Origin: Paenibacillus aceti
GTDB taxonomy: Bacteria > Bacillota > Bacilli > Paenibacillales > Paenibacillaceae
DNA: 64,000 bases
Reading direction: 5' to 3'
Assembly (NCBI RefSeq): GCF_003614185.1
Contig: NZ_KZ987724.1
Span: forward strand, 2,271,360 to 2,335,359
Position 1 is the first letter of the stretch. Each line of letters opens with the position of its first letter. The position numbers and the translations under genes were made by a program. The notes under the pieces were generated by a model, which saw only the letters and a program-made list of their open reading frames with translations, was not told the DNA's origin and ran no database searches. Below are positions 1,600 through 34,696 of the stretch, piece by piece.

Positions 1600-1631
1600 G
1601 GGGGTCAGTGGTTCGAGCCCACTACAGATCA
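1600..1631 (+). tRNA. Truncated tRNA 3' end (T arm and acceptor strand), candidate attachment site
   Basis: A canonical T arm is visible: stem AGTGG / CCACT closing the seven-base loop TTCGAGC (1607-1623). Seven acceptor bases ACAGATC and a discriminator A follow. No anticodon or D arm and no complementary 5' acceptor strand lie upstream, so the gene is partial. A terminator follows directly. This is the pattern left when an element integrates into a tRNA gene and displaces its original 3' end. Confidence 0.5.
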
Positions 1632-1638
1632 TTAAGAA

Positions 1639-1665
1639 AAACCCTTGCATAGCAAGGGTTTTTGC
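1639..1665 (+). terminator. Rho-independent terminator after the tRNA fragment
   Basis: Stem AAACCCTTGC / GCAAGGGTTT with a three-base loop, then T residues. The same stem is used after the tRNA cluster at 25065-25092, which supports a tRNA-operon origin. Confidence 0.75.
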
Positions 1666-1781
1666 TTGTTCTAGGAGATTTGTTTGTATACAACGTGCTA
1701 CAAACTAGGCCTTTTGGTCAAACGGGTATCGATCATTGTTCAGATTCGGGAAAATAAACCTAGAAATTCGGACAAACGAAA

Positions 1782-1819
1782 ACAAGCACACCTCCACAGT
1801 TAAGCATAGGTGTGCTTGT
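1782..1819 (-). terminator. Terminator of the GH85 gene
   Basis: Perfect 12-bp inverted repeat ACAAGCACACCT / AGGTGTGCTTGT beginning 13 bases beyond the stop codon, followed on the minus strand by a T-rich run. Confidence 0.8.
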
Positions 1820-1832
1820 AAGTCAGTACAAT

Positions 1833-7325: not shown

Positions 7326-7516
7326 TCCAATTTTCCTCCTTCATGTTCATATTTTGAACAACCTTGTGTATTTTTCGAAAAATTTGTGTTGCTTTTCACT
7401 TGAATCTCATTGATAGCATCATCATTTGCTGCTAAATAGGCGACCCAAATGTGATAAATATCACTTACATTGATATTCTGCCACCATCGGTCCTGCCCAT
7501 CAGCAAACCAGCGCAT
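7322..7516 (-). CDS. Possible 64-aa protein overlapping the GH85 start
   Basis: An ORF starting MRWFADGQDRWWQNINVSD has a G-rich Shine-Dalgarno (GGGGG, six bases from the ATG). It ends in an ATGA overlap with the GH85 start codon, the arrangement of translationally coupled genes. It has no recognisable domain or signal peptide. It could be a regulator remnant or simply leader RNA that happens to be open. An in-frame stop lies directly upstream, so it is not a fragment of a longer frame. Confidence 0.3.
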   Translation of the reverse strand: MRWFADGQDRWWQNINVSDIYHIWVAYLAANDDAINEIQVKSNTNFSKNTQGCSKYEHEGGKLE

Positions 7517-7531
7517 TTAAATCCCCCAAAT

Positions 7532-7545
7532 TTAAAGCGCTTTCA
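7532..7545 (-). promoter_or_regulatory. cre-like catabolite control site
   Basis: Minus strand TGAAAGCGCTTTAA matches the CcpA consensus TGNAANCGNTNNCA at all but one fixed position. It lies about 210 bp upstream of the GH85 start, consistent with carbon catabolite control of a glycan-degrading enzyme. CcpA binding is inferred. Confidence 0.5.
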
Positions 7546-7822
7546 AAATCCTCAACAGACCTACATTCCCTTTACTTCTACGTTCTTCGCTTTTTCTGAT
7601 TCTAGAAACATGCATCAACTACTACATCTGTTGATATTTGTTACCTCCTCGTTTTAGTGATTACCCCTGTGACGTATTTGCTGATATTTTCCGATATCAC
7701 ATCCCTCGTGAGAATCTAATCTCTACAGCTTTAGTCTACCGATGCTTTGATATGATATCTACTAGACAAACAATAGAAAGCAGTCAACAAACTATAGATT
7801 AGCTAATGTTATTGACATCGTT
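7546..7822. other. Intergenic stretch, nothing identified
   Basis: No supported coding frame, RNA or clear repeat is visible between the cre-like site and the transposase remnant. Confidence 0.6.
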
Positions 7823-8014
7823 TTAGTCTGTTAAATGGTTTGTTTTCAAAAAATGGACAGACCTATAGAATTTTTGTAACTTTCTGTATGCTCCGAATAT
7901 GTAATTCGCTGTAAGGTAGGTCTTCAATCTAGAATTGCATCGTTCTACACTCGTACATTCGTTGTAGAGTTCTTTTGTGGGGCCCAAATGGGGGCCAATA
8001 CTTGATTTTTCCAT
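7823..8014 (-). pseudogene. Transposase C-terminal remnant
   Basis: The minus-strand frame contains ELYNECTSVERCNSRLKTYL. This resembles the C-terminal RTSVER-NSRLK motif, which carries the catalytic Glu, of DDE_Tnp_1/IS1182-like transposases. The rest of the protein is absent, and the sequence after YLTAN diverges from the family. There is no start signal. It marks an old insertion between the GH85 and ABC-F genes. Confidence 0.45.
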
Positions 8015-8030
8015 CCCCCCAGCATATACT
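8002..8030 (+). promoter_or_regulatory. Sigma-A promoter of the ABC-F leader
   Basis: TTGATT, a 17-bp spacer, then TATACT (8025-8030). It is placed so that the transcript would begin just before the leader ORF Shine-Dalgarno at 8050. Confidence 0.55.
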
Positions 8031-8064
8031 TACAATAATTATGTTTTTTAAGGAGGTGGGTAGA

Positions 8065-8214
8065 GTGGATCGTAATTTTGTATGGAGTCGAGTTAGCCAG
8101 TTGCCGGTGGCAATTTCTGGCATTATCAATGAAGCAGTTCGCAACGGGATAAGTATGTCCATTTTCAGAAACTCGATATCTTATACAAATTGCGAAATGC
8201 CGCTCCTACCTTGA
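8065..8214 (+). CDS. 49-aa leader peptide of the ABC-F gene
   Basis: A GTG start follows AAGGAGGTGG at ideal distance. The peptide begins VDRNFVWSRVSQLPVAIS and ends with TGA at 8212-8214, 28 bases before a strong terminator hairpin. It has no known domain. Promoter, strong leader ORF, terminator and ABC-F gene together match ribosome-mediated attenuation known for antibiotic-resistance ABC-F genes such as vmlR. Function as a regulatory uORF is inferred. Confidence 0.5.
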   Translation: MDRNFVWSRVSQLPVAISGIINEAVRNGISMSIFRNSISYTNCEMPLLP

Positions 8215-8242
8215 CCTCACGGATTTGAATACGTGTGTTGAA

Positions 8243-8275
8243 GAAGGCTGCAGGTTTTTCCTGCAGCCTTCTTTT
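8243..8275 (+). terminator. Attenuator-like terminator upstream of the ABC-F gene
   Basis: Perfect 12-bp stem GAAGGCTGCAGG / CCTGCAGCCTTC with a five-T loop and trailing TTTTG. It lies 63 bp before the ABC-F start and after the leader ORF, so read-through would control expression. Confidence 0.75.
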
Positions 8276-8337
8276 GTCTTCATAATAGGATGACTTTCGA
8301 CAGGCAGCAGCGGCATAAGTCGAAGGAGAGCTAAACC

Positions 8338-10284
8338 ATGATGATTCAATGTCAACATATACAGAAATATTACGGTGCCGAGCTGGTGCTAAGCGATATC
8401 TCATTTGAAATTAAGGAAGGCGAAAAGGTCGGCTTGATCGGACGTAATGGTACAGGCAAGACGACGCTGATGAAGCTGATTATCGATACAGATAAACCGG
8501 ATCAAGGGCAGCTATCTGTCCGCCGCGGTGCCCGTATCGGCTCCTTGGCTCAAATTCCGGATTATCATAATGATGAGACTGTCTACACGGTGCTTCAATC
8601 GGCTTTTCGAGAAATACTGGACGCCAAGGAAGAAATGCAGCAATTAGAAGCGAAGATGAGTTCCACAGAAGCGATCGAGAATCCTTCTCTGTTGGAATCT
8701 CTGCTGCGCCAATACGGGCAGCTGCAAGATCAATTCGAGCGCGGTGGCGGTTATGAAATTGAAGCCTCGATCGATCGTGTCGCTGGGGGGCTAGGGATCT
8801 CGACCAAACAGTACAAGCGCCTCTTCTCTACCCTGTCCGGCGGCGAGAAGACGAAGATCGGCCTGGCCGTGATCCTGCTGCAAAGTCCAGATATATTGCT
8901 GCTAGATGAGCCGACCAACCATCTGGATATGGCCGCGATCGAATGGCTGGAAGAATTCCTTACCACGTACAAAGGTACGGTCATTATCGCTTCCCATGAT
9001 CGCTATTTTCTGGACGGGGTCGTACGTAAAATTATAGAGCTTGAAGACGGCGAATCCTTCACCTATCATGGCAACTATAGCGAATACAAGAAAGGGAAAG
9101 AAGCAAAGCTGCTTCAGCAGTTCGCCGAATATCAAGAACAGCAGAAAAAGATTCAGAAGATGAAGGAAACCATCAAGCAACTGATTGAGTGGGGCAACCG
9201 TTCGAATCCGCCAAACCCTAGCTTCCACCGTCGCGCCGCCTCCATGCAGAAGGCCTTAGACCGGATGGTTAAAGTAAAAAAGCCGATTCTGGAACGGAAA
9301 CGAATCGACCTGCAGTTGGAACAGACTGACCGCTCTGGTAAGGATGCACTCGTATTCATCGACGTAAGTAAATCCATCGAGGGAAGACAACTGTACAGAG
9401 GGATCACTTATACATTGCACTATGGCGAAGTAGCCGCATTAATCGGTGCGAACGGCTCCGGTAAGAGTATCCTGCTAAAAGGCATACTTGGCCTGACAGA
9501 TATCGATGAAGGGGAAATTCGCCTTGGCTCACGAAGCGAGGTCGGATATTTAGCTCAAGAGTCCACCCCTGCGGATCAAGACCGAACGGTGCTAGAGTAT
9601 TTCCGCGGTGAGATTGGAATGGAAACCGGTGAGGCCAGGAACCAACTGGCACGTTTTCTTTTCTACGGAACTGATGTATTCAAAAAAGTACACAGTCTAT
9701 CCGGCGGAGAATGGACCCGATTGCGGCTTGCGATCCTGATGTATCAAAAGCCCAATTTGCTGCTGCTCGACGAACCGACGAACCATCTGGATATCGATTC
9801 AAGAGAAGCGCTTGAGGATGCTTTGGAGGACTTCCCGGGAACCGTTCTGGCCGTATCCCATGACCGATATTTTATCAACAAGATCGCCGGGCAGATTTGG
9901 GCGCTTGAGGACAGGCAGATGATCGTATCTCTAGGCAATTTTGAAGACTATCGGGCAGAGCTTGAGAAGAGGAAATCTATCGCGGAACCTCCTGCACCAA
10001 AGGATCAGTATAAAGAGAACCCTAATAAACAGCCATTTGCAGCACAGGAACAGATGATGCAGCCCGCCGAAAGGAACCGTACAGCAAAAACCAACCCGGC
10101 CACAATACAGAAGCTGGAACTAGATATCGCCAAGATCGAGAGGAGCCTGGAAATAATCAAGACATCTATGCTTGATCCGAAGATCGCTTATGATGCTCAT
10201 GGATTGTCTGAGCTGCAAGTCGAACAAGACAGCCTTCAGCAACAACTAGACAGCCTGATCGAGAAATACCTCGAGCTGCTCTAG
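8338..10284 (+). CDS. ABC-F ATPase, probable ribosome protection protein
   Basis: 648 aa with two ABC cassettes and no membrane segments. Cassette 1 has Walker A GRNGTGKTT, signature LSGGEKTK and Walker B LLLDEPTNHLD. Cassette 2 has GANGSGKS, LSGGEWTR and another LLLDEPTNHLD. The interdomain linker (about residues 245-320) is long and highly charged, as in ABC-F proteins that enter the ribosomal E site. A C-terminal coiled coil (about 590-645) follows. Size and linker resemble the antibiotic-resistance group, for example TaeA of Paenibacillus, but a housekeeping ABC-F cannot be excluded. AAGGAGAG sets the start. The upstream leader and terminator suggest drug-inducible expression. Confidence 0.85.
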   Translation: MMIQCQHIQKYYGAELVLSDISFEIKEGEKVGLIGRNGTGKTTLMKLIIDTDKPDQGQLSVRRGARIGSLAQIPDYHNDETVYTVLQSAFREILDAKEEMQQLEAKMSSTEAIENPSLLESLLRQYGQLQDQFERGGGYEIEASIDRVAGGLGISTKQYKRLFSTLSGGEKTKIGLAVILLQSPDILLLDEPTNHLDMAAIEWLEEFLTTYKGTVIIASHDRYFLDGVVRKIIELEDGESFTYHGNYSEYKKGKEAKLLQQFAEYQEQQKKIQKMKETIKQLIEWGNRSNPPNPSFHRRAASMQKALDRMVKVKKPILERKRIDLQLEQTDRSGKDALVFIDVSKSIEGRQLYRGITYTLHYGEVAALIGANGSGKSILLKGILGLTDIDEGEIRLGSRSEVGYLAQESTPADQDRTVLEYFRGEIGMETGEARNQLARFLFYGTDVFKKVHSLSGGEWTRLRLAILMYQKPNLLLLDEPTNHLDIDSREALEDALEDFPGTVLAVSHDRYFINKIAGQIWALEDRQMIVSLGNFEDYRAELEKRKSIAEPPAPKDQYKENPNKQPFAAQEQMMQPAERNRTAKTNPATIQKLELDIAKIERSLEIIKTSMLDPKIAYDAHGLSELQVEQDSLQQQLDSLIEKYLELL

Positions 10285-20953: not shown

Positions 20954-23173
20954 CTATTTAACGGTAACCCGTACAGATACTGTTTTCGTACCATACTTAG
21001 CTTTGATCACAGCTGTTCCTTTGCTGACGGCTTGGATTTTGCCGTTAGTAACTGTGGCTACCGATGCCTTGGAGGTCGTCCATACGGCCTTGTCAGTAAC
21101 GGTGGCTGTAGCGCCGGTATCGAATGCTGCAGTCAGCTTAACCGTTTTTACATTACCCGGTGCAAGCTTCAGACTCTTCTCATCAATCGTCAGCTTCGTC
21201 AGTTTAGGAACTACGTTCACTTTAACGCTGACAGCATGTCCTTGATAAGAACCTTCCAAAGTCGCTGTTCCCTCGGCAATAGCTTTTACCGATGTTGAAG
21301 AAATTGTAGCAACCTTCTCATTCGAAGATTTCCAGCCCATTTTGCTGGACAAGGTAACTTTCTTGCCATCAGCATAATAACCGGTAACCTTAATCGCTTT
21401 GCTCTTCTTCACATTTAATTCAATCGTTGTAGGTTCAACGACGATTTTGGTGATTTTCTGTTCAATCGTCACGGGAATACTGATCGTTTTATTGGAATAG
21501 GTCCCCTTCAATGTAGCAGAACCCTTGGTTAGCCCTTTAATGGCCTTGCCAGTGCCCGTCGTTTTCACAACCGCATTTATACCCGTTACCGTCCATTCTA
21601 CATCAGCTGATACATCCGCTTCTCCGCCATCTTCCCATACCGCTGTAACTGCAGGGAGTGGAGTCTCTTCACCGACGATAAGATTTAATCTTTCACTCGG
21701 CGCGATCAGGGTAAGCACTTTCTCCTTCACGGTAAGCTCAACGCTGACGACCTCTCCACGAATACCGAGCGGAGAAGTTACTGCTTGTTCAGGAAGCTTG
21801 GCAGTAAGCGTAACCTTGCCTGCTTCCTTGGCGATGATTTTATCATCCTCAATCTTGGCGATATCTTCATTGCTGGAAGTCCACTTCATATGGCTACTGA
21901 AATCGATCTTATCATTATCCAGCTTAGTACCCGTTATCTTAGGAAGAGCCAGCTTCTCATCCTTGTACATTTCTAATTCTGTCTTCTCCGTAGTCAGCTT
22001 CGTAATCGTAGGTGAAACCGTCACTTTAATGCTCTTGCTCACCCCAAGATGGCTGGCCTTCACAGTAGAAGAACCGGCGGTCATCCCGGTGATCAAGCCT
22101 TGGGATACGGTCACAGCCAACGGAGTCGATGATGACCATTGTGCAGATTGAGTCACATTCTCTGAAGAATTGGCGCGATTTCTCATTTCTGCTTCAAGCT
22201 TCAGGGTTTCACCGATAAACAACAGCTGATCTTCTGAAGGCTTAAGCAGAATAACTTCAAACGGAGCACGAACATATACATCAACCTCAGCTTTTACCCC
22301 GAGATATTCCACTTTAATCGTCGCCTTGCCGACAGCCTTGACCTTCAGCTTACCCTCTTTGATCTCAGCTACTGCGCTGTCAGAGGAGGTCCAGGTTGCC
22401 TTATCCGTAACATCCACTGTGGATTGGTCACCGCTTAATGTCGATTGAGCCACAAGCGCTACTTCATCGTCACCGATCAGCAGTTCAACATCTTCACCGG
22501 TCACACTCGACCCGTTGCGAAGGATATTAAGTTCAGAATACGGCGAGCTTACTGTAGCTTTAAAAGAAGCCGTCAATCCTTTATATTTGGCTGTAATTGT
22601 AGCGGAGCCTTCACCGACAAGCGTAATTTTCCCCTTCTCGATCGTCAGTACCATGGCATTCGAAGTAGACCATTCAGTATCTTCTGTTACATCCTTCGTC
22701 TCAGTTTCACTGCCTGCAATGGCAGCCAACGCTTTAACCGTCAAGTTCTTATCGTTCGCTCCCAGCTTATACTTCCCTTTTTGTGAATATTCCAGTGTCA
22801 ATTCTTTATAGCTATCTACTGCCTTAACTTCAATCGTTGATACTGCAGCATTGTTGTATACAGCTGTAATAGTAGCACTGCCACTCTTCAATGGCGTTAC
22901 AAAGCCGTTATTCACACTAATAATCTCCGGCTGATCGGAGGACCAATCCACCGCTCTGGTTAAGTCACGTTTCACAGAGGAACCTTCTACCGTCCCCCAT
23001 ACCTTCAATTGCTTCGTAGTCTTCCCAACGGTAAGCTCGAGTACGGAACCAGAGCCTTCAATATCAATTGAAACAACATCTCCCGTAGCCGCAAAAGCGC
23101 CCGTAGGAAATACGACAGCTAGGAGCAGCGCCACTGTAAGGAGCCATCCTGTCAGTTTCCTTTTTTGAGTCAT
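20954..23173 (-). CDS. Secreted protein made of about eight Big2 Ig-like repeats
   Basis: 739 aa. A signal peptide (about residues 1-29) is followed by roughly eight tandem Ig-like repeats of 80-95 aa. Each has the Big2 signature W-x-S-S-N/D...A-x-I-x-x-G...G-x-A-T-I, for example WKSSNEKVATISS. It ends in TVSVRVTVK with no anchor, SLH or catalytic domain. The role is structural or adhesive at best guess. GGAGAG sets the start. The repeats are diverged, so the array is old. Confidence 0.8.
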   Translation of the reverse strand: MTQKRKLTGWLLTVALLLAVVFPTGAFAATGDVVSIDIEGSGSVLELTVGKTTKQLKVWGTVEGSSVKRDLTRAVDWSSDQPEIISVNNGFVTPLKSGSATITAVYNNAAVSTIEVKAVDSYKELTLEYSQKGKYKLGANDKNLTVKALAAIAGSETETKDVTEDTEWSTSNAMVLTIEKGKITLVGEGSATITAKYKGLTASFKATVSSPYSELNILRNGSSVTGEDVELLIGDDEVALVAQSTLSGDQSTVDVTDKATWTSSDSAVAEIKEGKLKVKAVGKATIKVEYLGVKAEVDVYVRAPFEVILLKPSEDQLLFIGETLKLEAEMRNRANSSENVTQSAQWSSSTPLAVTVSQGLITGMTAGSSTVKASHLGVSKSIKVTVSPTITKLTTEKTELEMYKDEKLALPKITGTKLDNDKIDFSSHMKWTSSNEDIAKIEDDKIIAKEAGKVTLTAKLPEQAVTSPLGIRGEVVSVELTVKEKVLTLIAPSERLNLIVGEETPLPAVTAVWEDGGEADVSADVEWTVTGINAVVKTTGTGKAIKGLTKGSATLKGTYSNKTISIPVTIEQKITKIVVEPTTIELNVKKSKAIKVTGYYADGKKVTLSSKMGWKSSNEKVATISSTSVKAIAEGTATLEGSYQGHAVSVKVNVVPKLTKLTIDEKSLKLAPGNVKTVKLTAAFDTGATATVTDKAVWTTSKASVATVTNGKIQAVSKGTAVIKAKYGTKTVSVRVTVK

Positions 23174-23372
23174 TCATTTCTCTCCTTTTTGGTTGTCAAC
23201 TCTGCCGGAATCCATATTCAGGCCTATAGGTAATATATCGACACACAGGTATAATTTCGTTACCCCATACCGGGAAATAATACATTTGTCCTACAAAAAA
23301 ATTCTTCGTATACAAAAAAAGACACCCCGGCCGGCCATCCATCCATTCGCCAAGAGTATCCTGAAAAAACAA

Positions 23373-23396
23373 AGAAACGGCATCTCTGCCGTTTCT
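23373..23396 (-). terminator. Terminator of tRNA-Lys copy 1
   Basis: AGAAACGGCA / TGCCGTTTCT with a TCTC loop and a T-rich minus-strand tail. Confidence 0.8.
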
Positions 23397-23402
23397 AAAG
23401 GA

Positions 23403-23475
23403 TGGATCGTCAGGGACTCGAACCCTGGACCACATGATTAAGAGTCACGTGCTCTACCAACTGAGCTAACGATCC
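23403..23475 (-). tRNA. tRNA-Lys (CTT), copy 1
   Basis: Complete cloverleaf of 73 bases: acceptor GGATCGT / ACGATCC, D arm GCTC...GAGC, anticodon loop CTCTTAA and T loop TTCGAGT. CCA is not encoded. Reads AAG codons. Confidence 0.93.
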
Positions 23476-23616
23476 ATATTATTAATGTCATCACCAACTC
23501 TTATATAATAACATAAATAATTAAGAGTTGCAAGACTTTTTAAAAAATCAATTGAACCTCAGCCTCAACTTCGGTAACCACATCCACCGCCCAGGCGGCT
23601 GATCCTAAAGAGAGAA

Positions 23617-23640
23617 AGAAACGGCATCTCTGCCGTTTCT
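23617..23640 (-). terminator. Terminator of tRNA-Lys copy 2
   Basis: Same hairpin as at 23373-23396, part of the duplicated unit. Confidence 0.8.
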
Positions 23641-23646
23641 AAAGAA

Positions 23647-23719
23647 TGGATCGTCAGGGACTCGAACCCTGGACCACATGATTAAGAGTCACGTGCTCTA
23701 CCAACTGAGCTAACGATCC
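23647..23719 (-). tRNA. tRNA-Lys (CTT), copy 2
   Basis: Identical to the copy 244 bp away, including the following terminator, so gene and terminator were duplicated together. Confidence 0.93.
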
Positions 23720-23816
23720 AAATTGTTAATGTCATTAACAACTATTACATAATACCATACTCTTTTTTGAGATGCAACATTTTTTGTGATGTTTTTATCT
23801 GTTGATCTAGGGGATA

Positions 23817-23866
23817 GAAAAGACCGCAAATCACTCATGATCATGAGAGCCTTGCGATCTTTCCAA
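23817..23866 (-). terminator. Terminator of tRNA-Leu
   Basis: Long hairpin AAAGATCGCAA...CTCATGATCATGAG...TTGCGGTCTTTT read on the minus strand. Confidence 0.7.
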
Positions 23867-23885
23867 TCTTCCTAAAAACATCCGA

Positions 23886-23971
23886 TGCCGAGAGCGGGAC
23901 TTGAACCCGCACGGTGGTCACCCACCCCAGGATTTTAAGTCCTGTGCGTCTGCCGATTCCGCCATCCCGGC
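23886..23971 (-). tRNA. tRNA-Leu (TAA)
   Basis: 86 bases with the long variable arm of class II tRNAs. Acceptor GCCGGGA, anticodon loop CTTAAAA within CAGGA/TCCTG and T loop TTCAAGT. Reads UUA. Confidence 0.93.
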
Positions 23972-24068
23972 CGATTGACGCATAATGCGCCTAGATGAGC
24001 AGATTTCCTATGTATAAGAAAAATCCTGCGTTTTTGATTATAGCATGGTTGTCCCCTAATAATCAAGC

Positions 24069-24509
24069 TCAATTCCTAAGAGGATGATCACAATTCCATA
24101 AACCGAGTCTCCCCACCACGCTCAGCGGTTCCTTCAGCAACCTCATATCCGTCATTTCCCAAGCATAGCGTCCTGCGCTAAAATCGCCAAATATGTATTC
24201 TGCACCGTCCACAAGATCCGCCTCTTCTCCCAGGATCGCAGCCGTCCCCAAATCCGCTTTGACGTTGTAGCACTGCTCCAGCCTTCCTACTGCGACAACT
24301 GCCCCTAAGGGCAAGCGTTCCGCCGTATACCCATGTTTCTGCAATATGGAGCGATAGGGTTCTTGCCTGCAAATTTTCACATCTACCTTCTTGCCAGCAT
24401 GGATTGCGATTTCTCCACGATAATTCGTTCTCCAGCTTCGGGTCTCAAAGCGCTTCTCCCCAATCGCAACCAGAGTAGCCCAGGGCTGTCTAATCGTTAT
24501 TGCCTTCAT
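24069..24509 (-). CDS. ASCH-domain protein
   Basis: 146 aa. The N-terminal motif MKAITIRQPWATLVAIGEK and then ETRSWRTNYRGEIAIHAGK are the hallmarks of the ASCH (PUA-like) fold, which is thought to bind RNA or act as a nucleoside hydrolase. The C-terminus (YAWEMTD, RLGLWN) closes the barrel. It is a single-domain, single-gene unit with no visible partner, and its substrate is unknown. Confidence 0.75.
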   Translation of the reverse strand: MKAITIRQPWATLVAIGEKRFETRSWRTNYRGEIAIHAGKKVDVKICRQEPYRSILQKHGYTAERLPLGAVVAVGRLEQCYNVKADLGTAAILGEEADLVDGAEYIFGDFSAGRYAWEMTDMRLLKEPLSVVGRLGLWNCDHPLRN

Positions 24510-25498: not shown

Positions 25499-25645
25499 AG
25501 TTGCCGATCTCCTCCATAATCTAAATGATTTGTCGATATATAGATTGCCCCTTTTTGCATAAAAAAAGCCGCCGAAAAAATTTCCAGCGACTTGTCATTG
25601 ATACAATTAGATTGAACGATCGAACTCATGAATATCTGGATCGAT

Positions 25646-27133
25646 CTAACCTTCATGAGTTTCCGGGAGATATGGTGTTCCATCCTCCTGGAACTCTATC
25701 TTCGGATTGAGCTTGATCTCCTGCAGCATTTTATTGCCTTTTTCCGCCCAATCCTTCAACGCTTCTGTAACGGATTTCTTATTCTCCAATACCTCTTGAA
25801 GATAATTACGTCCGATGTTCTCCACGGAGTACAGTCCACGCTTCTCCTGTTTCAACTTATCATCCTTCGGATTGGCAGGAGGAACAGGTTTCAACGCATA
25901 GAAGGCCTCCAGATTATAGGATTGACCTTGTCTTGGCTGAAGGTAAGACTTACGGGCGATCATCTCATACGAGTTGCTCCGCGACTTTAACTTCGCCCAA
26001 TCTTCCCCAGTGATGAACTTGATATAATCCCAAGCCGACTCTGGATTAGGTGCATTATTATTAATGGCAAATGTACTGCTCAAATAAACATTGCCCCCGA
26101 TATCCGGCTTCTCGGGATGAACCGGTACTGTAACGACATCCCAATCAATTGGCGTATAATCTTTGATCTTGGCTGCATTGGCATTGGTCTCCGCAATTTC
26201 ATTCACATAATTGCTCTCTGAAATCACCATCGCAACCTTGCCCGATAAGAACATATCATTGCTGACTGGAGTCCACGGCTCTTCAAAGCTATAATCACTG
26301 TTGTTCGGTATGACTTGTTCCTTGACCAGGGTAGACAGGGTATCCCATGCCTTGACCCATTGCGGGGAATTTACCGTCATCGTCTCGGCCTTCTCATCAT
26401 ACGTCCTCAACTGCAAAGGAGCCATATAAGTGTACTGCATGCCCCAGAACAGGTCATTGCCTCGATAGCGTTCAAAGCTAAATCCATAAGTCCGATCCTT
26501 GCCTGACCCTTTCGCTACCCGTTTGGCCAAGTTTAGCATATCATCCCAGGTCATTTTATCGGTTGGAGGCTCAACCCCTGCATCAGCAAATATCTTCTTA
26601 TTATAGTAAAGCGCGGACGAGGTGAATGTAGGCGTTAGGGCATATATGCTGCCTTCTCCCAAATCCTTGATCCCATCGATTACTGCGGGGACAAAGTCAC
26701 TTGTATCGAATTTATCCTCCTGAATCAACGGATCGAGCTGCTTCAGCATATTTTCCTGAATTAACTGCTTCAAGGAGCTTGTATCCGTCATTATAATATC
26801 GACCGGATTACTCCCGGTCATAATCTTCTTCATACTCTCCAGATAATCCGGCTCTTTAAAGTCCGATCCGTCATTATACCGCCATTCACTCTGATCGATG
26901 GCCGGGACAATTTCGATTTTCACATTTTTCCGGTCGTACTCATAGATATCTGTGTATTGTTGACGAAAATAGGAATCATCTGTACTCCCATACATGACGC
27001 CGATACGGAGTACCTTCTCTTGCTTGCTCTCTGGAGCCTTCGTTCCGGTACAACCGGCGAGCAGCCCTAAAGCCAATGTGGCTGAAAGAGATACTGCCAT
27101 CATTTTACGCATTTTTCCGTGCTTAAGTTTCAT
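25646..27133 (-). CDS. Solute-binding lipoprotein (ABC extracellular protein, family 1)
   Basis: 495 aa. The lipobox LLAGC puts the modified Cys at residue 28. The mature part has the family 1 sugar-binder layout: SNPVDIIMTDTSSLKQL, ALTPTFTSSALYYNKKIF, MTWDDML and later NNAPNPESAWDYIKFI. The ATG overlaps the upstream ATPase stop as ATGA and has GAGGAGGAG. It is the last gene of a MacAB-like operon that holds no importer-type permease. That is odd for a carbohydrate binder and suggests a sensor or accessory role. Confidence 0.85.
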   Translation of the reverse strand: MKLKHGKMRKMMAVSLSATLALGLLAGCTGTKAPESKQEKVLRIGVMYGSTDDSYFRQQYTDIYEYDRKNVKIEIVPAIDQSEWRYNDGSDFKEPDYLESMKKIMTGSNPVDIIMTDTSSLKQLIQENMLKQLDPLIQEDKFDTSDFVPAVIDGIKDLGEGSIYALTPTFTSSALYYNKKIFADAGVEPPTDKMTWDDMLNLAKRVAKGSGKDRTYGFSFERYRGNDLFWGMQYTYMAPLQLRTYDEKAETMTVNSPQWVKAWDTLSTLVKEQVIPNNSDYSFEEPWTPVSNDMFLSGKVAMVISESNYVNEIAETNANAAKIKDYTPIDWDVVTVPVHPEKPDIGGNVYLSSTFAINNNAPNPESAWDYIKFITGEDWAKLKSRSNSYEMIARKSYLQPRQGQSYNLEAFYALKPVPPANPKDDKLKQEKRGLYSVENIGRNYLQEVLENKKSVTEALKDWAEKGNKMLQEIKLNPKIEFQEDGTPYLPETHEG

Positions 27134-28029
27134 GCGTTCTCCTCCTCTAATGATTTCGGCGCCGTAATTACAATCTTATCTCCGTCAAATTCCATACTCG
27201 CTCGCCCTTGAATCCCGACCGCATCAAGATATTCCTTAGGAACCTGCAATCTTCCGACTCGATCGACCACCACGAATGCCTCATGCACTTCCTGGAGCCC
27301 GCCTTGATGCAGGTTCTCCATCGATGCCAGATCCAGATTCGGATTACGCTTGAGGAATTCCGTACTCGTCAAGCCATCGCGAATGGCAACGACCCGGTCT
27401 ACCTTACCTGCCAGTGTCAGGTCATGCGTGACGATCACGATCGTAATCCCCAGCTCACGATTCACGTTTCGAAATATGCTCATGATCTGATCGGAGGTCG
27501 AGGTATCGACCGAACCCGTCGGTTCGTCAGCCAGCAGCAGCTTCGGACGATTCGATAAGGAAATAGCGATAGCTACCCGCTGCTGTTCCCCACCTGATAA
27601 CTGGTGCAGCTTGCTATGCATACGATCCTTCAGGCCAACCCATTCCAACAATTGCTTCGCATAGGCGCGATCTAATTTACCGCTTAACAGCATAGGCATC
27701 TCTACATTTTCCAGAGCCGATAAATAAGGAAGCAGGTTACGTCCATTGTTCTGCCATACGAAACCGACCGTATTGCGCTTATATTCCACCAGCTGATCGT
27801 CACGGATTTTCAGCAGATCCCAGCCGCCTACATTAACTTGACCCGCGGAAGGGCGGTCAAGACCGCCCAGGATGTTCAGCAGGGTTGATTTCCCGCTGCC
27901 GCTATTACCGATAATCGCCATCATCTCGCCCTGATGGACCGTCAAATTCAGACCTTGCAGGGCCACGACTTCAATATCTTCGGATTTAAAAATTTTCACT
28001 AAACCTTCGCAATGAATCATTTCACTCAT
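27130..28029 (-). CDS. ABC ATPase with AbrB/SpoVT-like C-terminal domain
   Basis: 299 aa. LolD/MacB-type cassette: Walker A GNSGSGKST, signature LSGGEQQRVAIA, Walker B LLLADEPTGSVD and an H-loop in THDLT. After about residue 225 an extra tail contains VVVDRVGRLQVPKEYLDAVG and then DKIVITAPK, the pattern of AbrB/SpoVT swapped-hairpin domains. The start ATG (28029) follows GGGAGGAACGG, two bases after the permease stop. It would power the adjacent FtsX-type permease. What the tail binds is unknown. Confidence 0.85.
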   Translation of the reverse strand: MSEMIHCEGLVKIFKSEDIEVVALQGLNLTVHQGEMMAIIGNSGSGKSTLLNILGGLDRPSAGQVNVGGWDLLKIRDDQLVEYKRNTVGFVWQNNGRNLLPYLSALENVEMPMLLSGKLDRAYAKQLLEWVGLKDRMHSKLHQLSGGEQQRVAIAISLSNRPKLLLADEPTGSVDTSTSDQIMSIFRNVNRELGITIVIVTHDLTLAGKVDRVVAIRDGLTSTEFLKRNPNLDLASMENLHQGGLQEVHEAFVVVDRVGRLQVPKEYLDAVGIQGRASMEFDGDKIVITAPKSLEEENA

Positions 28030-28030
28030 A

Positions 28031-30931
28031 TTACCGTTCCTCCCCCATCTTGACAGCCTGATGTACACGCAAGCGGCGGATCTGCCAGAATAAGAGTCCC
28101 GCACCGAGCAGCAGCATCACCAGGACGACAACATACAATTGCATCGTGTCCGAGGAATTAAAGATGATTCTGAACGGCGGAACCTGTGAGGTTACATTGT
28201 CGGTCGTCTGCAGGAACGGCAAATACAATTTGCCCGCCACTTTACCAATAACGATCCCTAGAACGATCGATAATCCCGCAGTTAGCAGCTGCTCTGCGAG
28301 CAGCATCATCGTAAGCTGTTTGCGCGATAAGCCCATCGCACGTAATATACCGAATTGCACGACGCGGCTCGATAAATTGAAGAACCAGTACATGATATAA
28401 CCGATCAATGAGACGATCACTGAGACGAGGAAGCCCATACTCAGAATGCCGAATACTCCGCCGCGCGTAGGATGCTTCTTCTGTGTAGCCAGCTCGCTGC
28501 GGACGTCCCGAACCGAATACAGATCGATATTCTCCTCAGCCAGCTTCGTAATAAGCGGAGCTACCTTAGCATCCGGCTTCATCTTCAGCCATACCTCATA
28601 AGGCAAGATGGTGGCCTGATCATAGATATAGTCAAGATTGGCGATGATAAATGGAGACTCATCCGGATACAGACTCGGCCAATATGGCAGAATGCCGTAC
28701 ACAATGAAATCCACCGAGCGTTCCGCAAGCGAAACCGTAATAATATCGCCCGCCTTCAGCTGATATTTCTCCGCCAAATTAGACGGAACCAGCGCAGCGC
28801 TCTCATTCATCCCCAGCAAATTCAAATATTGATACGGCTGCGCCGGGAACAGATCATTACGGAACCAGGCTACTTCATAAAAATCAGCATTATCGATCCC
28901 CATAATATTCCCTTGGCCTGCTGAACGACCGGAAATGATCAGATTCCCGCGCGTCTGCAGCACCCGTGCGGCATGCTCTACACCATCCAGCTTACGGAAT
29001 ATTTCGAATGGCGGCTCGGTATAGATCGTCTTGCCTGGCTTATTGCCTTGACCATTCGGTCCTCCAGGACTACCAGGGCCCCCTGGACCTCCACCTGGAT
29101 TCCCTCCTGACTTGCCACCACTTCCATTCTTTCCTTGACCCGATCCGGACGGTGGCTTTGTCGGTGTCTCGGTTGACTCATCCCACACCGCTTTCATAAT
29201 CACGTCTGAACCGTACTTATACAGCGTACGCTCGGTCGAGTTCACATCGATCGTTCGGGCGGCAGAAGCATTATATACACCAAGACCCAAGGTTAGAACC
29301 AACAGGATCATTAACGGATAATAGGACGATGCCGAACGAGACAGCTGAGTAAGACTCAGATAATACGGAACCGGCAGCCATTTCTTGCCGATCCAGCCGA
29401 TCAGTTTCAGAATCCACGGAAAGACCCGCAAGAAAAATAGCCCGATCGAGAAAATGGCCAAGGCTGGCACGAAGAACAGAAAAGGCTGTACCTGCAGTTC
29501 ATCCGTCGTCATCCCCGTCTGGAATGTTAACATTTGGCGTTCATAGAACAAATAATAACCATACCCGGCGATCCCCATCAATGCGATGTCCAGGAACCAA
29601 CGCTGCCAGGTCGGAAGGCGATCGGTCCGCGCCTGCTTGCGCTTCGCATTTACGATGGATGCGCGGGCATAGGAGACCGCTGGCAGTACCGTAGCCAGAA
29701 TCGCAATGAGTACAGCTAACGCACCGAGAAGAAGCGCATCCATATTGAAGCCGACAGGAATCGATTTACGATTAACGAAGGTAAGGAATCCGTCGGCGGA
29801 GCCGATGCTCTTCGACATGAACCAGCCCAGCAAAGGCCCGAGCACCAGGGAAACCGCCCCTAATATAATCCCTTCCAGCAAATAAATGAAAATAATCTGC
29901 TTGGTAGAAGCTCCCCGGCTGCGCAGCACAGCGATATCACTCTGCTGCTTATCCAGAGACTGTCTTGCATTCATGACGATATAATAGAACACCATAGCAA
30001 TCATCGGAGCTGCCAGGGTGAACAGCAAAGTCTGCATTTGCAGGCTCTGCTTGCGGAAATCATTAAGCAGATCGCCGAAGGATAAATCCACCTTCGTATC
30101 CTTCAGCTTCTGATACAGCTCTACATTCAAGCGGTCGAGCGTACTCGATAATGGAGACAATTGACTCGTCTTGATCTCGCGTAAATCAAAGGCATAATAC
30201 CAGCTTGAATTATGAATAGGTAATGATAATTGCTTCATGAGGACATCATTGAACACTTTCTCGCTCACGTAGAAGCTGTTCATCATCCCTTCGAAGCCTT
30301 GATACCAATAAGGCTCCGTCCCGTCCTTCGGCTGGAATATACCAGCGATCTTCACTTGCAAGGTGACATTCGTACCGGAAATCGGATATTCCATCACATC
30401 TCCGACATGAAGATCTTGACGATACATGGCTTCTTCCAGCATCAAAGCCTCTACTACTTTACCGTCAGAGCTGTCCGAGGCCAGGTTCCCGCCCGTCACA
30501 GAGATATGATCCTGAAGGCCGCTCATCGAGTTAATCGACATCGTACGATTTCGGCTTGCATCGACCTTGCTTGGATCTAGAGGGTAGACCTCAGCACTTC
30601 TCAGAGCCCGATTGTTCACATAAGCATTGAACGGGAAATTTATTTCCCCGGGAATATCTTCAACAATATACTTATTTACCGCCTCAATCCCGGCCAAGTC
30701 GGTCTTTCTACCGCCCGTGGCCTGATAGCTCATCAACAAGGAGCCTGCAGGCAAGCCCTCACTTTGTTCTTTTAATGTGTTAGATACAACGCGCTTAAGC
30801 GCTCCGTCTGAATACATCGGGATGCTAACCGTAAAAGAGACTGCCACGATCAAACCAATTAAGGTGCTCAGCGTTAACCATTTCGTGTTCCACATTTTAC
30901 GGAATAGCAAACGTAACATTGGCACTCCCAT
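28031..30931 (-). CDS. Large FtsX/MacB-type ABC permease
   Basis: 966 aa. A membrane segment near residues 15-40 is followed by a MacB periplasmic-core-like domain, three helices around 310-420 and more near 445-560. A second extracellular domain follows, then C-terminal FtsX helices (about 820-950). Between residues 595 and 640 is a low-complexity Gly/Pro/Ser/Asn insert (GGNPGGGPGGPGSPGG). The layout is that of mechanotransmission or efflux permeases (MacB/LolC/YtrF type). Its start overlaps the adaptor stop (TAATG). A second in-frame ATG four codons on is also possible. Confidence 0.85.
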   Translation of the reverse strand: MGVPMLRLLFRKMWNTKWLTLSTLIGLIVAVSFTVSIPMYSDGALKRVVSNTLKEQSEGLPAGSLLMSYQATGGRKTDLAGIEAVNKYIVEDIPGEINFPFNAYVNNRALRSAEVYPLDPSKVDASRNRTMSINSMSGLQDHISVTGGNLASDSSDGKVVEALMLEEAMYRQDLHVGDVMEYPISGTNVTLQVKIAGIFQPKDGTEPYWYQGFEGMMNSFYVSEKVFNDVLMKQLSLPIHNSSWYYAFDLREIKTSQLSPLSSTLDRLNVELYQKLKDTKVDLSFGDLLNDFRKQSLQMQTLLFTLAAPMIAMVFYYIVMNARQSLDKQQSDIAVLRSRGASTKQIIFIYLLEGIILGAVSLVLGPLLGWFMSKSIGSADGFLTFVNRKSIPVGFNMDALLLGALAVLIAILATVLPAVSYARASIVNAKRKQARTDRLPTWQRWFLDIALMGIAGYGYYLFYERQMLTFQTGMTTDELQVQPFLFFVPALAIFSIGLFFLRVFPWILKLIGWIGKKWLPVPYYLSLTQLSRSASSYYPLMILLVLTLGLGVYNASAARTIDVNSTERTLYKYGSDVIMKAVWDESTETPTKPPSGSGQGKNGSGGKSGGNPGGGPGGPGSPGGPNGQGNKPGKTIYTEPPFEIFRKLDGVEHAARVLQTRGNLIISGRSAGQGNIMGIDNADFYEVAWFRNDLFPAQPYQYLNLLGMNESAALVPSNLAEKYQLKAGDIITVSLAERSVDFIVYGILPYWPSLYPDESPFIIANLDYIYDQATILPYEVWLKMKPDAKVAPLITKLAEENIDLYSVRDVRSELATQKKHPTRGGVFGILSMGFLVSVIVSLIGYIMYWFFNLSSRVVQFGILRAMGLSRKQLTMMLLAEQLLTAGLSIVLGIVIGKVAGKLYLPFLQTTDNVTSQVPPFRIIFNSSDTMQLYVVVLVMLLLGAGLLFWQIRRLRVHQAVKMGEER

Positions 30932-31989
30932 TAACGACCCACTACTTTCTGTCCAGGTGTGAGCCCCTTAAGGATTTCATACTCGGTTGATGTCTGCATG
31001 CCTACTTCCACATCAACTTCCCGCTTGGAACCATCTGCTTCAACAACCTGTACATAGGTACGTGAACCGATCGAACGCAGGGCGGATATCGGAATTAATG
31101 TTGCATTTTCCTTCCGGCTGGTCACAACCTTCACACTTAATTGGCGGCCACGCTCCAAGTCCTTCGGCCATTTATCCAATTCGACAATCAAATATTTATC
31201 GATGGAATCCTTATCAGGTGCATTGTTATTTCCACTGTTGCCGCTGTTTCCACTATTCCCGCTATTCGCGGAATCCGCAGGTGCTGGCATAGCCTTGATT
31301 TTACCGTTTACTACACCAATCCCGTTGATATCCACTTCAGCCTTCATACCGATGGACAGCTTCTGCAGATCTTCCTTACTGAAGGATGCCGCCACGACGA
31401 GGGAAGATGTATCGGAAATAATGCCCAAGGAATCATAAGCTTTGATGGTGCCGCCCTTCTGAGCATTAATAGAGATGACTGTGCCAGAGAATGGCGCTCT
31501 GAGTGTCCCATCGGCAATTTTCTGCTCCAGATCGGCCAATTCCTGACGCTGTTCCTCAAAGACGATCGAGGCCTTTTCAAATTCTATTTCGTCCATTTCA
31601 TCCTTTTTACGCAGCGTTTCCTTCATCGTTAATTCCTGCTGACGGAAATCGAGCTGCTTTTTACGCAGATCCCTCTCCAGATCCTTCGTTTCAAGCTCAA
31701 TCAATACATCGCCTTTTTTGACTTTATCTCCCGCTTTAACGAGGACGTTCTTGATATGAAGCCCATCTTCTGTAAAATAAATCGGTTCTTCGCGCTGGCT
31801 CATGATCTTGCCGACCGCATCTACCTTATTCTCAATCGCGCCTGACTTCACATCATACTCCGGTTTCTTCGAGATCGTCGGCGGAGTGATGACGGGCAGC
31901 ACTTCCTCCTCTTCTTCATTAGGAAGCAACGAGCATCCCGTCGGCAGAAGCAATGCTGCACACAAAGACAAGAGGCCCAGTGATCGCAT
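30931..31989 (-). CDS. MacA-like membrane-fusion lipoprotein
   Basis: 352 aa. Lipobox LPTGC puts Cys at residue 19. A biotinyl-lipoyl hairpin follows (VLVKAGDKVKKGDVLIEL), then a long helical coiled coil (about 105-165), the second lipoyl half (GTLRAPFSGTVISINAQKGG), a beta-barrel and a C-terminal membrane-proximal domain (LIPISALRSIGSRTYVQV). A short linker NSGNSGNSGNSGNNN interrupts the barrel. GGGAGGGTG selects the internal ATG. In Gram-positives such adaptors pair with MacB-type permeases, as here. Confidence 0.85.
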   Translation of the reverse strand: MRSLGLLSLCAALLLPTGCSLLPNEEEEEVLPVITPPTISKKPEYDVKSGAIENKVDAVGKIMSQREEPIYFTEDGLHIKNVLVKAGDKVKKGDVLIELETKDLERDLRKKQLDFRQQELTMKETLRKKDEMDEIEFEKASIVFEEQRQELADLEQKIADGTLRAPFSGTVISINAQKGGTIKAYDSLGIISDTSSLVVAASFSKEDLQKLSIGMKAEVDINGIGVVNGKIKAMPAPADSANSGNSGNSGNSGNNNAPDKDSIDKYLIVELDKWPKDLERGRQLSVKVVTSRKENATLIPISALRSIGSRTYVQVVEADGSKREVDVEVGMQTSTEYEILKGLTPGQKVVGR

Positions 31990-32005
31990 CACCCTCCCTT
32001 TCTTT

Positions 32006-32854
32006 CTAGTTAATGAATCTTCCATCCACCATTTCATAGACATGGTCTGCTACCTCCAAAATTGTTGGGTCGTGTGTTGTCATACATATTGTCACATTTT
32101 CTGTATGTATTATATTTTTGAATACAGCCATTACCTGAGCACCCATCTGGGTATCCAGATTCGCTGTAGGTTCATCCGCCAGCAGTAGCTTCGGACGATG
32201 TGCAATCGCCTTGGCGATCGCTACGCGCTGCTGCTCACCGCCGGACATTTCGAAGGGTCTGTGGAACATCCGCTTTCCAAGCCCTACCAATTCAAGACAG
32301 TGAGTTACCCGTGATTTCCACTCGCTGGAGGGCACATTCGCCATCCGGAGTGATAATTCGACATTCTCCCAAGCTGATAGAAGCGGAAGCAGAGCATAGG
32401 CCTGAAAAATAAAGCCGATCTGATCCCGGCGCAGCTTGGTACGCTGATTGTCGCTTAAGGAATGAAGAGGCTGATCCCGGAAATAGATTTCTCCCGAGGA
32501 AGGCTGGTCAAGACCGCCCAGCATGTTCAGCAATGTCGTTTTACCTGAACCGGATCTACCTTTTAGCATGACGAGCTGACCACTATGAACCTCCATATTA
32601 ATTCCTTTAAGCACATGAAGCTCCCCCCCTCCTACTGGAAAAGAGCGGTGAACATCCTTAACAGACAAAACCAGACCTTTAGGTCCTTCCTCTGCTACCG
32701 GTGCTTGAGAAGATATTTCCACCGTAGCCTGCTCCTGCCCAGATGGGGAGTCAGCCGGCTCGGATTCAATTTCATCAATATGCTCAGTATGGTCGGCAGC
32801 TTTCTCATCACCGGGTTCAGAGGATTTAACTGGTTTGCGAAGCCATCGCATCAT
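32006..32854 (-). CDS. MacB/LolD-type ABC ATPase with acidic N-terminal extension
   Basis: 282 aa. The first about 60 residues are acidic and probably disordered (HTEHIDEIESEPADS). A LolD/MacB-type cassette follows: Walker A GRSGSGKTT, signature MSGGEQQRVAIA, Walker B LLLADEPTANLD and MTTHDPT. It is the first gene of the five-gene unit, 16 bp before the adaptor start. Two ATPases with one permease suggests a heterodimeric nucleotide-binding pair. Confidence 0.87.
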   Translation of the reverse strand: MMRWLRKPVKSSEPGDEKAADHTEHIDEIESEPADSPSGQEQATVEISSQAPVAEEGPKGLVLSVKDVHRSFPVGGGELHVLKGINMEVHSGQLVMLKGRSGSGKTTLLNMLGGLDQPSSGEIYFRDQPLHSLSDNQRTKLRRDQIGFIFQAYALLPLLSAWENVELSLRMANVPSSEWKSRVTHCLELVGLGKRMFHRPFEMSGGEQQRVAIAKAIAHRPKLLLADEPTANLDTQMGAQVMAVFKNIIHTENVTICMTTHDPTILEVADHVYEMVDGRFIN

Positions 32855-33109
32855 CTTGTATCGGTCTCCTATATGATCTATTTTTTTGGATTGCGTTATT
32901 GGAACGCGGCTTTCACCGTTTGACCTACGTATCCTATACGCTATGCATTATAAACGAAAATACATGGCAAAAAGTTACAAGATTTTTTACGAAATTGAGA
33001 TTATCTTTTTGCAGGTTTAATTACCAAAATTTTAATGCTGATAGACGGACTCTTTTCTGATAGTATAGCAGAGATTTCTATTATCTACTGGAAAAGAGGC
33101 CCAACCAAC

Positions 33110-34696
33110 ATGAAGATTACTAGACTTACTCTTCTCCTGCTTGCATGTCTGCTGCTTGTAGAACCTCTAACCTTGGCCAAGAGCAGCTCGCTTCCGTTCC
33201 AGGATATCGGACAGAGCTATGCCAAGGAGGCCATACTCTACTTACACCAGAACAATATAATGAACGGGACCAGTGAGCACTACTTCTCCCCGAACAAAAC
33301 GATGACCCGCGCTGAATTTGCTACTACACTTATCCGTCTTCTACATATGGAGCCAGTCGACGCTGCCGTCCCTACCTATATGGATGTGAAAAGAGAGACC
33401 TGGTACTATGAAACCGTGCAGGCCGCCAGCGAACTCGGCCTTGTTAACGGGAATGGGGGCGGAATCTTCTCCCCGGAAAGTTCTATAACTCGACAAGAAG
33501 CGGCAACCCTAATAGTACGCGCTCTGAAAGAGCAGCCAAAGACCTCCGGACTCGGACAATTCGCTGATCAGGCCTCGATCTCCTCCTGGGCACGGCCTTA
33601 TGTTGCCACTGCTGTCCAGCAAGGATTAATGCAAGGAAGCGGCGGCTACTTCCATCCCTATCAGGCTCTGACGCGGCAGGAAGCGGCCATGCTGCTATAC
33701 AGAGTGCTGCAGAACGGAAAATGGCAGGACATGATCAGCTCGAAAGCCCCCGCAACCATCCAGATCGGCTGGCAATACGGACAGACGACCGACGAATACA
33801 AGCGTTCGATCAAGAACTCCAACATCAATGTCCTGTCACCACGCTGGTTCTTTCTTAATCAAGACGGTACCATGGCTAGCCATGTGGACTCCTCTCTGAT
33901 CAGCTGGGCGAAGCAGAATAACAAAGCGATCTGGGCGATGGTGGGCAACCGTTCTCTTCAAGAGGATACGCATGCGATGCTGTCCTCGAAGCAGGAAGCG
34001 ACCGCTTTTATTGCCCAGCTTAAGGCTGCCGTCACGAAATATGGCTTGCAGGGCATTAATCTCGACTTCGAGAATGTAGCTCCGCAGGATCGAGAAGCCT
34101 TGACCGCCTTTACAGCTGAGCTCGCGGCGCAGTTGCACCGGATCGGTGCCAAGCTGTCCGTCAACGTCTCCCCGGATTGGAACAACGACTGGACAGCAGC
34201 ATTCGATTATGCCAGCCTCGGCAGCAGTGCGGACTATATCATTCTGATGGGCTATGATCAGCATTGGTCCGGATCGCCTAAGGCCGGCTCTGTTTCCTCT
34301 CTGCCTTGGGTGGAGCATGGTCTGGATGCACTACTGAAGGAGGTTCCTGCCTCCAAGATTATACTGGCGCTACCGCTATACAATCGCGATTGGGTGACGG
34401 ACAGCAAGACGGGGGCTGTTACCTCCGAGGATGTATCCTTGTCTGAACAGAACAAGCGACTGCAGAAATTCGGTGCCCGATATAATTGGAAAGAAGAATT
34501 AGGGCAATATCAAGCAGAATACACGACGAATGGAGTAACCCACCAGCTATGGCTGGAGGAGACACGATCACTCTCGACCAAATACGGACTGGGCGCCGAA
34601 CGAGGAATCGCCGGCTTCGCCTATTGGCATATCGGCGGAGAATTCCCGGCTATATGGCCGAGCCTGCGCAATATGTCCAAATATATGGCATACTAA
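33110..34696 (+). CDS. SLH-domain GH18 glycoside hydrolase
   Basis: 528 aa. A signal peptide (about residues 1-23) is followed by three SLH motifs (FSPNKTMTRAEFATTL, FSPESSITRQEAATL, HPYQALTRQEAAMLLYR). The GH18 barrel has catalytic LQGINLDFENV (Asp and Glu of DxE) and DYIILMGYDQHW. This resembles YaaH/YdhD-type cortex and cell-wall glucosaminidases, with SLH in place of LysM. It should sit on the cell wall. It is divergent from the ABC operon. The ATG at 33110 follows AAGAGG. Confidence 0.85.
   Translation: MKITRLTLLLLACLLLVEPLTLAKSSSLPFQDIGQSYAKEAILYLHQNNIMNGTSEHYFSPNKTMTRAEFATTLIRLLHMEPVDAAVPTYMDVKRETWYYETVQAASELGLVNGNGGGIFSPESSITRQEAATLIVRALKEQPKTSGLGQFADQASISSWARPYVATAVQQGLMQGSGGYFHPYQALTRQEAAMLLYRVLQNGKWQDMISSKAPATIQIGWQYGQTTDEYKRSIKNSNINVLSPRWFFLNQDGTMASHVDSSLISWAKQNNKAIWAMVGNRSLQEDTHAMLSSKQEATAFIAQLKAAVTKYGLQGINLDFENVAPQDREALTAFTAELAAQLHRIGAKLSVNVSPDWNNDWTAAFDYASLGSSADYIILMGYDQHWSGSPKAGSVSSLPWVEHGLDALLKEVPASKIILALPLYNRDWVTDSKTGAVTSEDVSLSEQNKRLQKFGARYNWKEELGQYQAEYTTNGVTHQLWLEETRSLSTKYGLGAERGIAGFAYWHIGGEFPAIWPSLRNMSKYMAY

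Follow-up and report, generated by a model that had tools for sequence, protein, structure and literature searches.

Why should a solute-binding protein (SBP) of the kind that usually serves importers be encoded together with an export-type ATP-binding cassette (ABC) machine? The question is raised by a 64,000-nucleotide stretch of the Paenibacillus aceti genome (assembly GCF_003614185.1, contig NZ_KZ987724.1, positions 2,271,360 to 2,335,359), hereafter the window. It contains five minus-strand genes in the order ATPase1, adaptor, permease, ATPase2, and SBP; the first four are referred to as the pump. A preliminary description of the window had proposed a tightly packed five-gene operon, and both the existence and the packing of the genes were confirmed. 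From ATPase1 to the SBP, neighbouring genes are in turn separated by 16 bp, overlapping by 1 bp, separated by 1 bp, and overlapping by 4 bp (ATGA). An alternative, longer start of the adaptor is possible at 32043. The five genes are:

32006..32854, minus strand: ATPase1 (282 aa), a LolD/DevA/FtsE-like ATP-binding subunit with an ABC_tran domain
30931..31989, minus strand: HlyD/MacA-type membrane fusion adaptor (352 aa from the ATG at 31989) with a lipoprotein signal
28031..30931, minus strand: 966-aa permease with two FtsX units, seen as two separate FtsX stretches, and a weak MacB_PCD match
27130..28029, minus strand: ATPase2 (299 aa from an internal ATG), a LolD/MacB-like ATP-binding subunit with a C-terminal extension
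25646..27133, minus strand: family 1 solute-binding lipoprotein, the SBP (495 aa), SBP_bac_1/SBP_bac_8, with the lipobox LLAGC

We read the operon as encoding a Type VII ABC mechanotransmission complex (MacB/LolCDE/YbbAP superfamily) with a dedicated SBP partner, and put the probability of this reading at roughly one half. It starts from the genes, their packing and domain make-up, their conservation across the sampled order, and the co-inheritance of SBP and pump, and extends to a putative physical complex, its ligand, and its direction of work. The preliminary description had linked the binder to an exporter-type ABC system, and this link is supported.

The same gene order was searched for in relatives and is conserved. 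It is present in 15/15 named relatives (Paenibacillus, Fontibacillus, and one Paenibacillaceae metagenome-assembled genome), 14 of which also carry pyrE upstream of the operon, and it is kept in 29 further family loci (L029-L057), where ATPase1 and SBP are cut by the locus ends. Permease matches at E<=1e-30, paralogues included, occur in 162/197 genomes of the family, and an SBP at E<=1e-90 in 169/197. In a family list of 150 permeases, one per genome, the SBP lies 872-959 bp 3' of the permease on the same strand in 135 rows and, by comparison of coordinates by eye, at the equivalent place in the remaining 15, which gives 150/150. Twelve permease-positive genomes fall outside this list, and all of them but G010, G125, G178, and G196 were examined: G052, G120, and G151 have the SBP, G017 and G186 show none in the stretch read, and G102, G118, and G179 have only paralogues of the permease. 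Beyond the family, 182 of 246 genomes of the order (a sample that includes the family) have a permease match at E<=1e-20, and permease, ATPase2, and SBP follow each other in 10/10 shorter stretches from five other families of the order, these being the ten read out of 20 chosen. The phylum sample yielded a match in 8/299 genomes, two of them from the family. Because gene order and permease-SBP spacing are kept in the family, and the permease, ATPase2, and SBP succession in other families of the order, the five-gene arrangement is not due to chance. This conservation suggests that the system does something basic, for which no function is assigned in the material searched.

The SBP is also joined to the pump in a second layout. 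These sister operons (13 loci plus L101 and L104, i.e. all rows at >=66 percent identity) have the order histidine kinase, SBP, ATPase1, adaptor, permease, and ATPase2 in 15/15 loci. At all 15, the SBP gene precedes and overlaps ATPase1 with the histidine kinase gene upstream; a response regulator is labelled at 14 (the exception is L127), and an ECF sigma gene follows the operon at eight. A FastTree phylogeny groups the permeases of the two SBP-bearing operon types in a single clade with support 100, comprising 28 rows of which two lack the SBP, and sets it apart from 69 family paralogues; L129 and L130 have long branches. An SBP tree, made by a quick method and containing long branches, places 55/62 rows in one family (support 96) with a main-operon and a sister-operon branch (98 each). 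L124_main_1796, L152, L179, and importer rows fall outside this family, and L012, which has stops in the stretch, was dropped from the alignment. Since the split of the SBP family mirrors the two operon types, the trees suggest, but do not prove, a single old association of SBP and pump in which the place of the gene changed later. Two independent joinings were considered as well; by both trees they are the less simple account.

FtsX matches the permease at 1.2e-22 in two stretches (Pfam), a feature that the preliminary description had missed and that fits the presence of two ATPases. Hydropathy and the helices predicted by a low-confidence structure model concur in giving approximately ten transmembrane (TM) helices and two large outside stretches:

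30077..30754, minus strand: permease ectodomain 1 (aa ~60-285), predicted from the secondary structure of a low-confidence model and a hydropathy gap
28472..29209, minus strand: permease ectodomain 2 (aa ~575-820), MacB_PCD match at 2.2e-06, low-confidence model

A Gly/Pro-rich stretch (aa ~589-632) lies within ectodomain 2. In profile searches against solved structures, the N half of the permease matched LolF/LolC and the C half, weakly, PsdB and YtrF; no match to YbbP was obtained in these searches. The NCBIfam lolCE score of 38.7 is below the cut-off of 362.45. The permease is probably a fused pair of MacB-like halves, and such a pseudo-dimer with two FtsX units would explain the two different ATPases. 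A hetero-ATPase complex is suggested by the pairing of one fused permease with two genes for ATPases. In two genomes of the genus (L111 in G120, and G086), the permease lies in overlapping frames or pieces, through either sequencing error or decay.

ATPase1 matches ABC_tran at 3.1e-34, and its nearest NCBIfam models are DevA (2.8e-62) and then LolD (2.4e-61), both below their cut-offs. It has a variable N-terminal extension of ~60 aa, and a pattern search in 85 relatives found Walker A in 83, the signature in 84, Walker B in 82, and the H loop in 80. ATPase2 matches ABC_tran at 3.1e-33, with LolD as the nearest NCBIfam model (3.4e-66, below the cut-off), and its catalytic motifs are invariant across the 22 rows of an alignment that leaves out L019, L021, and L025. 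The LolD equivalog scores of the two ATPases (222.9 and 207.1) are below the cut-off of 307.75, and the MacB equivalog scores, which concern the ATPase part alone, reach 199.2 and 191.4 bits where the cut-off is 966.

Two lipoproteins complete the operon. The adaptor matches HlyD_D23 (3.1e-13) and HlyD_3 (5.7e-11) in Pfam, exceeds the NCBIfam cut-off for RND_mfp (120.8 bits vs 94.9), and falls far below that for MacA (45.8 vs 342). Its lipoprotein signal has a cysteine after LLLPTG. The SBP matches SBP_bac_1 at 4.8e-29, and its nearest matches in the PDB are sugar SBPs (best 2.7e-19). The lipobox pattern is present in 14/14 SBP rows labelled main, one of which lies outside the family in the tree. 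A serine stands where an aspartate that we take to be a sugar-binding residue would align, and Lmo0181 likewise has serine; loss of this aspartate is possible and only a lead. The named relatives are 61-81 percent identical to the window in the SBP, 73-90 percent in the permease, and 85-98 percent in ATPase2; the adaptor (64-87 percent, tblastn) varies to much the same degree as the SBP. Rapid change in an outside part would suit, without proving, a ligand-facing role of the SBP. A glycan-like ligand is possible, a guess drawn from the kinship of the SBP to sugar binders and from the xylanase-linked paralogues of the pump described below.

The mechanism that we propose is as follows. The single fused permease with ten TM helices would form a pseudo-dimer, each FtsX half being driven by a different ATPase, ATPase1 or ATPase2. 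The lipid-anchored HlyD adaptor would sit atop the two outside domains of the permease. The SBP, also lipid-anchored, would act as the function-defining partner on the outside, taking the place that EnvC, LolA, or TesA has in known systems. It would bind a ligand, which most likely comes from a glycan or from the envelope, and would load, receive, or report this ligand while ATP hydrolysis moves the outside domains.

Several observations weigh against such a partnership, and in particular against an obligate one. Of 15 genomes queried, 12 from the genera g8 and g14 keep the SBP, and in 11 of them no permease reaches E<=1e-30 (nine are listed as zero; G140 and G165 are missing from the full list of positives). 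At 9/9 g8/g14 loci, the SBP lies by the pyr operon without pump genes; pyrE is labelled adjacent in six, and open reading frames (ORFs) assigned to the pyr operon by eye flank the other three. The lipobox is gone in the g14 SBPs (0/5); in the g8 SBPs, the pattern is found in 0/4, yet LPGC is kept by eye. Conversely, in two genomes (G017 and G186; L109 and L110) the stretch read contains the pump but not the SBP. Pump genes without SBP are also seen at 6/6 distant loci, of which three hold all four genes in the usual order, two are cut by contig ends, and one is rearranged. At L130, which bears an SBP, neither ATPase1 nor ATPase2 is seen directly beside the permease. Furthermore, the AlphaFold models of SBP (pLDDT 54.7) and permease (pLDDT 46.8), built from input alignments of 16 rows each, are both poor, and too weak for fold searches, pocket mapping, or interface work. 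As a separate observation on the distant relatives, a 764-aa lipoprotein-like protein with two lipoyl/HlyD stretches is encoded between adaptor and permease in L088 (11155-13449).

SBP copies without a pump were also read for importers. At a threshold of E<=0.001, 23 SBP matches occur in the window genome. Five close SBP paralogues (29-35 percent identity) in this genome group with the sister-operon branch in the SBP tree; four are in tandem beside ligA (L026 7730-13896) and one is single (L027 8065-9414). No importer was seen in the stretches read at these two loci, and no same-strand importer permease at 20 further orphan SBP loci from 10 genomes; the search used two reference permeases, an EAA motif no more than 1.5 kb away, and, for selected neighbours only, Pfam. 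The preliminary description had named an importer permease partnering the binder elsewhere as a refutation; within these limits, the 22 loci give no co-directional one. At L227 and L230, an importer is on the opposite strand, and that of L227 has its own SBP. The orphan at L240 adds to the points against the proposed partnership and speaks for looser or other SBP partners: on its own strand it is followed, after 272 bp, by genes for a family 5 binder, an M20 peptidase, and ATPases of oligopeptide type (586-6333; the stretch ends at the oligopeptide-importer genes). The odds given above were kept despite L240, because it is one locus of 20 and its importer has its own binder. The orphan SBP of L241 is 98 bp from a different ATPase and an 815-aa FtsX permease (4986-9547), a pair directly before the SBP. 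The SBPs of L229 and L232 come after an ABC ATPase, EcsB, and an M29 peptidase, and that of L222 lies 20 bp after a 5-TM protein (without a Pfam match) and an ABC ATPase. L223 (2438-8262) carries a DesK-type kinase, a LuxR-type regulator, and a guanylate-kinase-like gene, followed by two tandem SBPs. The remaining scanned orphan neighbours are unrelated.

These patterns bear on the alternative that the SBP is a co-regulated neighbour, needed under the same conditions but acting alone, or with a distant importer and a shared ATPase, and never touching the pump. The g8/g14 genomes, with five g14 loci even lacking the lipobox, the often tandem orphan copies including L240, the pump without SBP in G017 and G186, and the 23 SBP matches among which partners elsewhere are possible would all suit it. 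It has to contend with the linkage of SBP and pump across the sampled order and in two operon layouts, as well as with the missing co-directional importer permeases at the orphan loci read. We consider this explanation unlikely, though likelier than the other alternatives. That the pump itself works as an importer fed by the SBP is very improbable. Family 1 SBPs normally feed importers, which is the reason to consider it; the HlyD adaptor speaks against it, and so does the statement in PMC12646458 that Type VII systems typically move no substrate across the cytoplasmic membrane.

Pumps of a related clade have other company. Four-gene pumps lie beside GH10 xylanase genes at 20 of 24 loci and, in addition, at L099, L100, L105, and L107; GH10 is the immediately next gene in 15 of the 24 xylanase-adjacent loci. 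At 36 other paralogue loci fetched, no GH10-like ORF was found within six ORFs (0/36). Among the 69 paralogues in the permease tree, SBP-like neighbours were seen only at L179, the sole one of 60 paralogue loci with weakly similar SBP genes (24 percent), and at L103, which adjoins importer-type SBPs (25-31 percent identity); L107 was read in part. Given these paralogous pumps beside GH10 or other SBPs, a core made up of the two ATPases, the adaptor, and the permease seems to serve repeatedly, with differing partners on the outside. The set of paralogues at xylan loci comprises L099, L100, L105, L107, and L132-L155.

The xylanase loci also bear on MacAB-type efflux of a drug or peptide, in which the SBP would sense or load the drug. 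Such a system would account for the adaptor and the MacB-like ATPases, and the two-component system beside the sister operons recalls Bce-type systems. Against it, the window shows neither a resistance gene nor an antibiotic-type regulator immediately next to the main operon, the main operon type is present across the sampled family and order, the related pump clade is associated with xylanases, and the SBP is nearest to sugar-type binders in the PDB. Efflux of this kind is improbable. The preliminary description had suggested detoxification of a drug, peptide, or signal; the drug and peptide parts find no support beyond family resemblance, with no resistance gene adjacent and paralogues by xylanases, while a signal-response role is left open by the two-component system beside the sister operons.

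A lipoprotein-release machine like LolCDE or LolF, with the SBP as one of its cargoes, is also suggested by family resemblance. The N half of the permease is nearest LolF/LolC, LolD is the nearest NCBIfam model for ATPase2 and the second nearest for ATPase1, and both SBP and adaptor have lipoboxes. However, the four xylanases read beside paralogous pumps have no lipobox by eye, and the lipobox-less SBP of g14 lives without a pump. In addition, the host is monoderm and thus has no outer membrane to which lipoproteins could be delivered. We regard release of this kind as quite improbable.

The C-terminal extension of ATPase2 adds a further element to the proposed complex. It is present in 22/22 ATPase2 rows and carries a conserved D..GRLQ(V/I)P motif, which is weaker in L088. 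When the tails were cut out as domains, 12/19 matched MraZ and 11/19 MazE_antitoxin at E<=0.5 (best 4.5e-06), and as whole proteins 3/22 matched each family. The window ATPase2 itself has no Pfam match to either family, as whole protein or as isolated tail. Against the PDB, the tail matched AbrB at 0.0013 and SRP54 chains better, at 1.6e-04, through a short motif. The tail is likely, though not proven, to be an AbrB-like small domain:

27157..27285, minus strand: likely AbrB/MazE-like small domain at the C terminus of ATPase2, from Pfam matches in relatives

An AbrB/MazE-like tail on an ABC ATPase is kept in distant relatives as well. Tentatively, and at less than even odds, the operon may represent a new Type VII class, in which a nutrient-type binder is the permanent outside partner, its ligand gates or is served via hetero-ATPase mechanotransmission, and the AbrB-like tail of ATPase2 may report the state of the pump to gene expression.

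The surroundings of the operon in the window are also partly recurrent. A divergent gene with SLH and GH18 domains (33035-34696) adjoins it, and a divergent GH18 gene is likewise at the operon in 12/15 named relatives. Downstream (20954-24509), a Big_2-repeat protein and an ASCH-domain protein are encoded, each of which recurs near the operon in several relatives. A possible end of the transcript lies just 3' of the SBP gene; the region has 8 terminator-like patterns where shuffles lead one to expect 6.5, so they are weak evidence taken alone:

25566..25593, minus strand: terminator-like hairpin and T run

If the SBP does dock on the pump, this would break the rule that family 1 binders mean import, and some annotated "sugar-binding" lipoproteins of Paenibacillus-like genomes would have to be read differently. 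An export-type machine encoded with an import-type binder in many related soil bacteria suggests a form of the machine that responds to a molecule from outside or passes it on. Among the papers listed in literature searches, none treats this operon by title or abstract start, and a family 1 SBP as a Type VII partner was not met in the passages and listings covered. One lead, PMC12838199, was rejected, as MACB is a strain name there.

Among known systems, YbbAP has a homodimeric ATPase, LolCDE combines two separate 4-TM permeases with one ATPase type, MacAB is built from homodimeric 4-TM subunits, and BceAB/PsdAB are not known to have an adaptor or an SBP. The window operon has the combination of an FtsX permease with LolD/DevA/MacB-like ATPases that marks Type VII (MacB/FtsX) ABC systems. 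According to PMC12646458, it is the partner protein that defines function in Type VII systems, and the rows covered of the B. subtilis table in PMC11466899 give one ATPase type for each such system. YbbAP-TesA of E. coli (PMC12646458) has one ten-TM permease with more than one outside domain, as is predicted for the operon here, a LolD/YbbA-like ATPase, and a soluble outside partner, a part that the SBP would play here. Unlike YbbAP-TesA, the operon has two ATPase genes, an extra C-terminal domain on ATPase2, an HlyD adaptor, and an SBP instead of an esterase. The predicted topology of the permease is that of YbbAP and not that of BceAB with its single outside domain, as PMC12646458 and PMC11466899 describe them.

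LolCDE and LolF-LolD resemble the operon in the best model of ATPase2 (LolD) and in the best matches of the permease N half (LolF/LolC), but they lack an adaptor and an SBP. MacAB(-TolC) and the pneumococcal Spr0693-0695 combine an HlyD/MacA adaptor, an FtsX/MacB-type permease, and an ATPase, as here, but they are not known to have an SBP or a second ATPase. BceAB/PsdAB share the ten TM helices per chain, predicted here, and a two-component system, the latter as in the sister operons; BceAB differs in its single outside domain and in using the same ATPase twice (BceA2B; PMC11466899). With the CUT1 sugar importers (e.g. 4rk2 and 1eu8), the SBP shares the fold family, including the SBP_bac_1 domain of family 1 (CUT1) binders, and the lipoprotein anchoring; unlike in these importers, no linked importer permease is present in the operon, and none is co-directional at the orphan loci examined. 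The SBP-partnered form is best read as a variation on known Type VII machinery.

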